From contig NC_014010.1 of assembly GCF_000024465.1 (NCBI RefSeq), positions 2,046,001-2,110,000 on the forward strand: a DNA stretch of 64,000 nt. The letters run 5' to 3'. The translations under genes and the position numbers were made by a program. Below the pieces are notes generated by a model. It was not told the DNA's origin, ran no database searches, and saw nothing but the letters and a program-made list of their open reading frames with translations. Below, piece after piece: positions 29,668-41,091 of this stretch (positions are counted from its first letter, which is position 1; the number at the start of each line of letters is the position of its first letter). The stretch is from Candidatus Puniceispirillum marinum IMCC1322 (GTDB lineage: Bacteria > Pseudomonadota > Alphaproteobacteria > Puniceispirillales > Puniceispirillaceae).

Positions 29668-30291
29668 ATGAGAATTCTATTTGGCTATGCGAATGGCGTA
29701 TGTCGTGACTTTGTGCAGAATCACTTACTTGACGATCTTTCAAAAATTCAGGTCATGACCGCAAGCACACTTGGTCAATGTATCGAACTGACTGGTGACG
29801 CCAAAGACATAGATGTAGTGGCGCTGGATCTTAATATGCCGGATATGAAAGGCGTGCAGGGGCTGTCGCGGATGCGGGGGGCGTTACCGAATGAAGTGCC
29901 TGTCGCGCTGATGGGTCACACGCTTGACCCTCAACAGATGCGCGACGCTTTACGCCTGGGTGCCGCTGGGTTTTTACCTTATTCAATGACATCGGATGCT
30001 TTGCTTAGCGCGTTACGCCTGATGGCCAGTGGCGAAATTTTTATTCCGGTGAGTGTCGCCGAACATGTTCAGATCGCCAAGCCATCCACTGCTAAAGACA
30101 CATTCCTTAGCAAGCGCGAACGTGAAGTGCTGGATGGTTTGCTGTCTGGACATTCAAACAAGCAAATTGCCGAACGGATTGGTCTCAGCGAAGTGACCAT
30201 CAAATATCATCTTAAAAGCCTGCGCTCAAAACTGGGTGCCCGCAACCGAACGCATGCGGCTTTGCGCGCCATCGAACTGGGTATCGGATAG
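29668..30291 (+). CDS. NarL/LuxR-type response regulator with degenerate receiver
   Basis: A 207-residue regulator: receiver domain (1-120) and LuxR helix-turn-helix (about 139-203: LSKREREVLDGLLSG, NKQIAERIGLSEVTIKYHLKSLRSKLGARNR). The phosphoacceptor D54 is present (ALDLNMPDM), but the N-terminal acidic pair is missing (ILFGYAN instead of IVDDH-like), the switch Ser/Thr position reads M82-G83, and the conserved Lys is Tyr (GFLPYS, Y105). Phosphorylation control is therefore doubtful. No histidine kinase is nearby. An AAGGAAATCC site precedes the ATG; the TAG stop abuts a tandem repeat array. Confidence 0.9.
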   Translation: MRILFGYANGVCRDFVQNHLLDDLSKIQVMTASTLGQCIELTGDAKDIDVVALDLNMPDMKGVQGLSRMRGALPNEVPVALMGHTLDPQQMRDALRLGAAGFLPYSMTSDALLSALRLMASGEIFIPVSVAEHVQIAKPSTAKDTFLSKREREVLDGLLSGHSNKQIAERIGLSEVTIKYHLKSLRSKLGARNRTHAALRAIELGIG

Positions 30292-30446
30292 CCGCGATCA
30301 TCTATCGATCTTCGTTTCACTTCGACCGGATGATGCTTGATATAAGCCGCGATCATCTATCGATCTTCGTTTCACTTCGACCGGATGATGCTTGATATAA
30401 GCCGCGATCATCTATCGATCTTCGTTTCACTTCGACCGGATGATGC

Positions 30447-30448
<2 letters not shown>
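30291..30448. repeat. Tandem hairpin repeat array 1 (3 copies, 55-bp period)
   Basis: Copies begin at 30291, 30346 and 30401; the first two are identical over 55 bp and the third is identical until it ends at 30448. In each unit ATCATC and TCGA on the left can pair with TCGA and GATGAT on the right (copy 1: 30297-30302 and 30305-30308 with 30322-30325 and 30329-30334), forming a stem-loop. The junction GCTT-GATAT-AAGC can form a second one. The array fills the whole gap between the regulator stop and the acs stop codon (TTA at 30447-30449). A sister array is at 39422-39646. Confidence 0.95.
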
Positions 30449-32387
<1,939 letters not shown>

Positions 32388-32477
32388 TGACCTCTCCATC
32401 GTCGGCGTTAGCCTGTTTAGTTCAGCCTATTAACTGGAAGGCGTGATGGCAAGGCTGAGATGCACAGAATTTGTGGC

Positions 32478-38758: not shown

Positions 38759-38801
38759 TGGCGCATTCTTTAAGTGCTTGTTCGTAATCGGAGTGATGAT
38801 G

Positions 38802-39389
38802 ATGCAAAAATTGTCCCTGCTTTTCAGCCTTGTTGCGCTGATCTTTCTTGGCGCATGCGGGGCAACGACGACTATGGTGTCGGCACCGCCGCAATTTGAA
38901 GCCGATAGTTATCAGCCCCTGCGTATGAATGCGCGGCGCATGGAAATTATTGAAAACTGGCAGATGCCTATCGAAGCACCCTATATTGGTTATCTTGCCA
39001 ATCCAGCCCCATCAAATGTGGTAATTGACTGGGCGTCACATGTATTGATGCCTGCTGGGGGTAGCGGTGAATTGGTGCTTGATATTTCGCGGGCGTCCTT
39101 AACCCGCACCAAGCTGGCACGTTCGGCTGGGTTGAACAGCCTGATTACAGATGAACAGGAAAGTAAAATCGAAGCACATATCGAAGCCCGCCTGATCTGG
39201 TTACAGCCAGTTGGCGGGTTCCAGGGTATGATTGAATTGTCGGCGCGTCATTCGGTAACGATTCCTGAATCATCCACCGCCAACGAGCTTGATATTGCGG
39301 TGCAAGAGGCTCTGCTTGCCGCGGTGAATTTGCTCGACACACAAGCGCGTGAAGAAGTCGCCAAAATCCCGAATATCACGGTACCCTAA
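38802..39389 (+). CDS. Putative lipoprotein of unknown function
   Basis: A 195-residue protein with a signal peptide and lipobox (LFSLVALIFLGAC, then GATTT). The rest is a mixed alpha/beta domain: MPIEAPYIGYLANPAPSN, VVIDWASHVLMPAGGSGELVLDIS, RTKLARSA, DEQESKIEAHIEARLIW, MIELSARHSVTIPE, ELDIAVQEALLAAVNLLDTQAREEV. Similar predicted lipoproteins follow hslO in some alphaproteobacteria. No function can be assigned. Of three consecutive ATGs, that at 38802 is 8 bases after GGAG. The gene ends just before repeat array 2. Confidence 0.8.
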   Translation: MQKLSLLFSLVALIFLGACGATTTMVSAPPQFEADSYQPLRMNARRMEIIENWQMPIEAPYIGYLANPAPSNVVIDWASHVLMPAGGSGELVLDISRASLTRTKLARSAGLNSLITDEQESKIEAHIEARLIWLQPVGGFQGMIELSARHSVTIPESSTANELDIAVQEALLAAVNLLDTQAREEVAKIPNITVP

Positions 39390-39421
39390 ACCAGTAACAT
39401 ATGGTCTTGCAGGCGTTCTGG

Positions 39422-39646
39422 CTGGATGATGCTTGATAGTGCGCGATCATCTATCGATCTTCGTTACACTTCGACCGGATGATGCTTGATAGTGCGCGAT
39501 CATCTATCGATCTTCGTTACACTTCGACCGGATGATGCTTGATAGTGCGCGATCATCTATCGATCTTCGTTACACTTCGACCGGATGATGCTTGATAGTG
39601 CGCGATCATCTATCGATCTTCGTTACACTTCGACCGGATGATGCTT
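39422..39646. repeat. Tandem hairpin repeat array 2 (4 copies, 53-bp period)
   Basis: Units begin at 39439, 39492, 39545 and 39598, identical to each other, preceded by a 17-bp partial unit from 39422. They share with array 1 the core GATCATCTATCGATCTTCGT and TTCGACCGGATGATGCTTGATA, differing at TTACA versus TTTCA and at the junction (GATAGTGCGCG versus GATATAAGCCGCG). The same stem arms are kept (ATCATC, TCGA / TCGA, GATGAT). The last unit ends in GCTT, whose final T begins the trkH stop codon (TTA, 39646-39648). Confidence 0.95.
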
Positions 39647-41091
39647 TACCGCCGCCAGAATCCAGGGTTGAGCATGACAAGAACGGTAAATAATTCCAGT
39701 CGGCCAAGCAGCATGCCAAACGACATGACCCATTTTGCGGGATCAGGCAACAGGGCAAAATTACCTTCGGCACCAATCAGATTGCCAAGCCCGGGCCCGA
39801 CATTGCTGATTGATGTTGCCGCGCCAGATAAGGCGGTGATGAAATCCAGCCCCATCATGCCCAGCAAAATAGCCAGAATGACAAAACATAAAATATAGAC
39901 ATAGAAAAACGCCATCACCGAATCCATGACCTCGCTGGAAACCGGTTTGCGGTTATAATAGGCAAGCACAACACCATGCGGACGTAACAGGCGGCTGATC
40001 TGGACGCGCGCAGTTGTCGCGAGCACCTGTAGCCTGAATACCTTGATGCCGCAGGTTGTCGATCCGCCACATCCGCCGATGAACATGGCGATCAGTAACA
40101 TTGTTGATGCAAACCCACCCCAAGCTGAAAAATTGGCACTGCCAAAGCCGGTGCCAGTCAGGATTGAAATTGTGTTGAAACTGGATTCACGGATCGCATG
40201 GGCGATCTTGTATCCACCAGCTGACAGGTGCCAGGCCAATAAGGCCACAAGTCCAATCAGCAGAATAAAGAACCATCTGACTTGTGGGTCATTTACCAGA
40301 TTGCGCCAGCCACCACGAACTATTGCCAGATAATGCGCAAAGGGCAGACTGCCAACAATCATGCCGGCAATGACAATCCATTCGATGGTAACCGAATCAA
40401 ACGCCCCAATTGAGGCTGTCCGCGTTGAATAGCCCCCGGTTGCCAAGGTTGTCATGGCATGGGTAAGCGCGTCAAATATGCCCATACCCGCCGCCGCTAG
40501 CATGATTGTCCATGCCGCTGTCAGGCCGGCATAAACCAGCCCGATGCCACCTGCCAACTGGGCAGCGCGGGGCACAACCTTGTCAGCGCGCTCATAGGAT
40601 TCGGTGCGGAATAACTGCATGCCGCCAACTGACAGCATCGGCAATACCGCCATCGCCATCACAATGATGCCAACGCCGCCCAGCCATTGCAAAAGCGCCC
40701 GCCACATCAGAATGCCTGGTGGTGCCATCTCAATATATTGTAATACGGTCGAACCCGTTGTGGTGATCCCCGATACCGACTCAAATAGCGCATCTGTAGG
40801 GCTAAGTTGTAATTCGCTAAACATGAAGGGAAGTGACCCGAAAACACCAATCAGCATCCAAGAGCCATTGGTCAGCAAAAACGCCTGGCGCAACCCAAGA
40901 TCAAGCGGTTCACGCTGTGACGTTGCCAGCCAAGTGGTGACACCGAAGAAAGCGGTGAATAAGGATGAAACGGCAAAAACCTGCCAGTCGCCAGACCCAA
41001 AATACAGATCGACACACATCGGGATTAGCATGGTCGCTGCCAGAATGGTGGTCAAAAGGCCCAGAATGTTCAAAACAGGTGAAAATTGCAT
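39646..41091 (-). CDS. trkH: TrkH-family potassium uptake channel
   Basis: Integral membrane subunit of the Trk/Ktr K+ uptake system, normally gated by a TrkA/KtrA RCK protein. The 481-residue protein has four pore-repeat selectivity regions, including SGITTTGSTVL, ALTHAMTTLATGGYST, SILTGTGFGSANF and ATSISNVGPGLGN, with an FRTESYERADKVVPRA cytoplasmic loop. No trkA is in the window. It is convergent with the lipoprotein gene across the hairpin array. Confidence 0.95.
   Translation of the reverse strand: MQFSPVLNILGLLTTILAATMLIPMCVDLYFGSGDWQVFAVSSLFTAFFGVTTWLATSQREPLDLGLRQAFLLTNGSWMLIGVFGSLPFMFSELQLSPTDALFESVSGITTTGSTVLQYIEMAPPGILMWRALLQWLGGVGIIVMAMAVLPMLSVGGMQLFRTESYERADKVVPRAAQLAGGIGLVYAGLTAAWTIMLAAAGMGIFDALTHAMTTLATGGYSTRTASIGAFDSVTIEWIVIAGMIVGSLPFAHYLAIVRGGWRNLVNDPQVRWFFILLIGLVALLAWHLSAGGYKIAHAIRESSFNTISILTGTGFGSANFSAWGGFASTMLLIAMFIGGCGGSTTCGIKVFRLQVLATTARVQISRLLRPHGVVLAYYNRKPVSSEVMDSVMAFFYVYILCFVILAILLGMMGLDFITALSGAATSISNVGPGLGNLIGAEGNFALLPDPAKWVMSFGMLLGRLELFTVLVMLNPGFWRR

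Follow-up and report, generated by a model that had tools for sequence, protein, structure and literature searches.

The closest described systems to the repeats analysed here are the RIMEs, or Rhizobium-specific intergenic mosaic elements (Osteras et al., 1995, as cited in PMC2573895), which in later papers appear as annotated repeats of intergenic regions, with no known function (PMC2573895). A second alphaproteobacterial system is formed by Br-REP1 and Br-REP2 of Bradyrhizobium, 3′-UTR palindromes that lie at convergent genes and are transcribed (PMC5082802). A third is the REP/BIME system, a set of tetranucleotide-tagged palindromes that are spread by the RAYT (Y1 HUH) transposase; these short imperfect palindromes are located downstream of genes and at convergent gene ends, with several regularly spaced units per site (PMC3733652, PMC2817692). 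REPs that carry the GTAG tag often supply a TAG stop codon (PMC3733652), and REPs of E. coli are reported to slow the terminating ribosome when they lie no more than 15 nt from a stop codon (PMC12306157, PMC5082802).

Here we describe a repeat family of Candidatus Puniceispirillum marinum IMCC1322 (P. marinum), a member of the SAR116 clade, the genome of which is a single contig of 2,753,527 bp. The window, that is, the whole stretch of DNA that was analysed, comprises the 64,000 bp from 2,046,001 to 2,110,000 of this contig. The family is a new form, amplified in tandem, of a type of palindromic repeat already known from Alphaproteobacteria. In common with the RIME-type repeats of rhizobia, it is intergenic and located 3′ of genes (nine of ten P. 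marinum arrays), starts at the stop codon, and is frequently placed between convergent genes. It resembles the Br-REPs in being an alphaproteobacterial palindrome behind genes, but the consensus sequences are unrelated (PMC5082802). With REP/BIME it shares imperfect palindromes behind genes and at convergent ends, the occasional provision of a stop codon, and the clustering of units.

Results

The array between trkH and a lipoprotein gene (array 2) occupies positions 39424–39646 of the window, where TRF reports a period of 53 bp, 4.2 copies, and a 100% match, in agreement with the period given in an earlier note on this DNA. Unit dissection resolves it into four identical 53-bp units and a partial unit at the far end, which reads AAGCATCATCC in the sense direction and measures ~11 bp, rather than the 17 bp that had been claimed. 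The sense strand is the minus strand, and matches of a covariance model place the four hairpins at 39600–39646 (unit 1; 68.1 bits), 39547–39593 (unit 2), 39494–39540 (unit 3), and 39441–39487 (unit 4). Unit 1 lies directly 3′ of the TAA stop codon (39648–39646) of a minus-strand gene at 39646–41091, in the arrangement TAA-A-GCATCATC. From its recognizable sequence, we take this gene to encode a trkH-like potassium transporter; it has orthologues in 32 relatives, with 54–83% identity. Approaching from the other side is a plus-strand, lipoprotein-like gene at 38778–39389, which encodes a signal sequence with an LGAC lipobox, ends in TAA at 39387–39389, and is syntenic with trkH in relatives. The array is therefore situated, as previously noted, at a convergent gene end, with 34 bp of unique sequence (39390–39423) between its far end and the convergent stop. 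No Rfam 15 model matched up to an E-value of 5, and a blastn search with array 2 against phages and plasmids gave no match.

Array 1 (30290–30448, minus strand) belongs to the same hairpin family and consists of 2.9 identical 55-bp units (TRF: period 55, 2.9 copies, 100% match). It occupies the entire gap between two convergent stop codons, such that the TAA of an acetyl-CoA synthetase-like gene (acs; 30447–32399, minus strand) forms its 5′ edge and the TAG of a LuxR-type response-regulator-like gene (luxR; 29668–30291, plus strand) abuts its 3′ edge. Units of the two arrays differ by one substitution and in the spacer. Both differences described earlier, TTACA in array 2 for TTTCA in array 1 and a junction of its own, are correct by sequence. 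The arrays had also been said to share a 20-bp core; they do share sequence, but its extent was underestimated, as the hairpins are 98% identical.

To survey the genome, we used a covariance model built from ten units, which gave 48 matches, the last one or two of them at chance level. The family comprises ten arrays and one decayed solo copy at 1730323, and dissection yielded 45 scored units, 25 of which are distinct. Their sense consensus is (T)AA-GCATCATC-CN4-loop-N4G-NNA(A)-GATGAT-CGCG-spacer. In kind A units the loop measures 10–13 nt; in kind B units it is 4 nt long (GCAA, GCAC, or GTTA), and the outer arms are perfect. Despite the unequal hairpin lengths, almost every unit of either kind keeps to a period of 52–56 bp. 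The palindrome is usually repeated three to seven times per site, strictly head-to-tail, and all of the arrays are shorter than 350 bp. A coding function of the units was considered and rejected, given that three does not divide evenly into periods of 52, 53, or 55.

Seven of the 11 family sites are found within 100 kb (1.73–1.83 Mb) around a local GC-skew minimum at ~1.81 Mb, and kind B units occur only between 1.759 and 1.827 Mb. The simplest guess is that this clustering reflects local spread from a founder. The parAB genes and a parS-like site (TGTTTCACGTGAAACA, near 1812124) lie beside this minimum; the loop itself can resemble half of a parS site (GTTTCAC), an idea that was dropped because the loop varies. 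The decayed single unit (1730323–1730364) overlaps the end of a ThiF/MoeB-like gene, and the remnant provides the TGA stop of that gene. An unrelated, perfect tandem repeat of 19 bp × 6.2 is also present near the origin (1812792–1812908), and other perfect arrays with 15–16-bp units lie at 1836152 and 1724048. We rejected a general proneness to tandem repetition as the explanation for the family: many other short tandem repeats exist in the genome, but they do not follow the stop-codon rule.

Each unit corresponds to a hairpin that runs from GCATCATC to GATGAT and encloses an inner 5-bp stem (CN4/N4G). This inner stem shows compensatory changes (GGCC/GGCC, GGCT/AGCC, AATC/GATT, and GGTC/GATC); 98.5% of its cells pair in the P. 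marinum units, and none of 500 shuffles reached either the observed paired-cell score or the observed covariation score. One pair of the outer stem also covaries once the rhizobial copies described below are added (C-G, A-U, G-C). On the sense strand, the inner stem contains five G-U pairs and zero A-C pairs. The sense strand folded better than shuffled sequences, with z of −1.4 to −2.8 for kind A and −4.6 to −5.8 for kind B, and the plus strand of one unit folded no better than its shuffles. The presence of G-U without A-C pairs, the folding of the sense strand, and the orientation of the units modestly favor a transcribed, gene-sense RNA hairpin.

In nine of the ten arrays, a gene on the same strand ends where the first hairpin begins: the hairpin follows the stop codon at a distance of 0–1 nt or has a base in common with it, the joints being TAA-GCATC, TA-GCATC (TAG), or TAA-A-GCATC. 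All of these stops are TAA or TAG, and none is TGA, although TGA accounts for 30% of stops. The probability that at least nine of ten arrays would be docked by chance is roughly 5e-18, a figure that is based on simple ORF calls and indicates an order of magnitude only. Most sites lie between convergent genes. The tenth array, the only one that does not follow a stop codon, is located upstream of a thymidine kinase-like gene. The insertion and structure of the arrays are well supported. It could be argued that docking reflects selection alone, with insertion occurring anywhere and convergent stops being almost the only harmless targets in a compact genome, for example at the TA within overlapping TTAA or CTAG stops. 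Such a scenario fits the coding fraction of ~0.9, the many 4-bp overlapping stops at orthologous junctions, and the use of TAA and TAG, without TGA, expected of a TA-containing target. Yet at trkH the array begins exactly at the stop, even though 34 bp of unique sequence is left on the far side; at the docked arrays generally the near end is 0–1 nt from the stop, whereas the far end is variable, with 0 to over 100 nt to the next stop; and rhizobial copies in longer gaps likewise begin at the stop. We therefore consider it rather unlikely that selection is the whole explanation.

About two dozen relatives have trkH and the lipoprotein gene in synteny; in these, the stop-to-stop gap is −4 to 89 bp and holds no array, compared to 256 bp in P. 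marinum. Similarly, no array was found in relatives at the orthologous acs/luxR junctions (the site of array 1) or at the orthologous parB/holA junctions, several of which have 4-bp overlapping stops. Searches for the family in 60 and 120 related genomes gave isolated weak matches only, and two weak matches among the 60 (G002 and G024) were rejected upon inspection. Matches to the outer-arm pattern (at least 120 in genome contigs and 58 in viral contigs) were also discarded as chance-like, since all are single and only a handful have even a 4-bp inner stem. In one relative, the 3′ end of trkH has undergone a small tandem duplication that takes in the stop codon (CTTCTGGCGGCGATAACGCC repeated).

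Because the orthologous convergent pairs of relatives are without arrays, and often have overlapping stops, the arrays are most simply read, from the sequence comparison, as lineage-specific insertions that later grew in tandem. On average, hairpins of one array are 93% identical to each other, and those of different arrays 80%. The ten arrays with their ~45 units, the higher identity within arrays, and the array-free junctions of relatives support the earlier proposal that a dispersed element was subsequently expanded locally. Gene conversion among units is plausible; the array at 1782880, in which two inner-stem types stand behind one spacer type, suggests either conversion or mixed recruitment. 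That single copies are ancestral agrees in part with what was found, as intact solo copies exist outside the P. marinum genome but inside it there is just one, and it is decayed.

Among 384 other alphaproteobacterial genomes, for each of which the best 16 candidates were scored so that weaker copies may be missed, there was one convincing solo homologue (E-value 7e-9; 44.9 bits); a second match (6.5e-5) was not convincing on inspection. The solo copy of this distant, bridging alphaproteobacterium is located upstream of a gene, and not behind a stop. When used as a query, it matched Rhizobiaceae plasmids with 88–96% identity over 44–50 nt. The P. marinum model in turn recovers the rhizobial copies, nearly all with E-values of 1e-5 to 1e-10, values that have to be read in light of the fact that the copies were reached through a model match. 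At all six distinct annotated loci checked at which a gene on the same strand precedes it, the rhizobial hairpin begins 0–4 nt from the stop of that gene, and at one Agrobacterium locus the element takes up the whole gap that separates two convergent stops. The rhizobial element also has a second palindrome (AGAGCG...CGCTCT) ~20 nt after the hairpin, and it is from this two-palindrome layout that we presume the copies to be RIMEs.

The first palindrome of the rhizobial repeat has the outer arms GCATNATC/GATNATGC and the 3′-side bulge in common with P. marinum, and its loop, AGTGAAACGA, is similar to that of the P. marinum units and identical in array 1. Judged by these sequence comparisons, the P. 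marinum and rhizobial hairpins are shown to be homologous. They differ in that the rhizobial copies examined here are solo and have the second palindrome, whereas P. marinum has the first palindrome in tandem and no second; a margin of 150 bp around each of the ten arrays contained no palindrome of the second rhizobial type. Consequently, as it does not have the two-palindrome layout, we refer to the P. marinum family as RIME-like, and not as RIME. On Bartonella plasmids, for instance at 1501–1558 of locus L375 (a plasmid of Bartonella sp. HY328), the second palindrome seems to stand alone and to be present several times.

Discussion

We consider it probable that the arrays represent a RIME-like palindromic element at stop codons that was amplified in tandem in P. 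marinum and that serves as a hairpin at the 3′ end of the mRNA, its function being deduced from fold and position. The element would be small, with a hairpin of ~34–46 bp plus a spacer (52–56 bp in all), and would belong to a RIME-like alphaproteobacterial family. It may enter, or be retained, directly behind TAA or TAG stops in the sense of the ending gene, mostly between convergent genes. After its arrival, slippage or unequal recombination would multiply it in tandem, as a result of which units would be alike within an array while arrays diverge. Given that the start of the array is nearly always exactly at the stop codon, the element is probably a ready-made mRNA end piece: the transcribed hairpin, with its base at the stop codon, could protect the message from 3′ exonucleases or act as a barrier to read-through between convergent genes. 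By analogy with the E. coli REPs, it might possibly also slow the terminating ribosome.

Another proposal is that the units are ordinary transcription terminators, duplicated in situ. The position between convergent genes is as expected for terminators, and one relative has, at the acs/luxR junction where P. marinum carries array 1, a terminator-like hairpin with runs of A and T on its flanks. However, no T-run follows the P. marinum hairpins, so they are not canonical intrinsic terminators, and a terminator scan detected none at array 2. In addition, homologous sequence at ten unrelated genes requires dispersal rather than duplication in place. We regard this proposal as improbable.

The likeness to REP/BIME set out above could mean that the family belongs to that system, a reading that we find more doubtful still and that has been largely refuted. 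A profile search of the P. marinum genome for the RAYT transposase (Y1_Tnp, PF01797) gave no match, whereas the control search was positive in ten of 14 genomes. The family also differs from REP/BIME in having no GTAG or CGTC tag (its units are preceded by TAA, CAA, AAA, or TA), in a copy number of ~45, not hundreds, in its larger hairpin, and in an orientation that is head-to-tail only. There are 15 matches to tyrosine recombinase domains in the genome, none of them linked to the arrays. We tentatively raise the possibility that two or more alphaproteobacterial lineages harbor RIME-like hairpins as miniature mobile elements that truly prefer TAA/TAG stops for insertion and are moved by a non-RAYT enzyme, with tandem arrays in SAR116 that are concentrated around the replication origin.

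That the arrays are artefacts of assembly or read duplication, as the perfect identity of copies might suggest, is extremely improbable, considering that ten short arrays have different fixed sequences, different periods, in-unit mutations, and a common rule of location.

The RIME-like reading connects an unexplained tandem repeat, from a bacterium that is abundant in the ocean, with a long-known rhizobial repeat of unknown function. The hairpin-at-stop rule, which is common to both groups, makes their function (in mRNA 3′ ends, termination, or ribosome stalling) and a stop-codon-targeted mobility testable. The family would add to the GTAG REPs a second case of palindromes that are docked at stop codons, and one that is apparently independent of RAYT.
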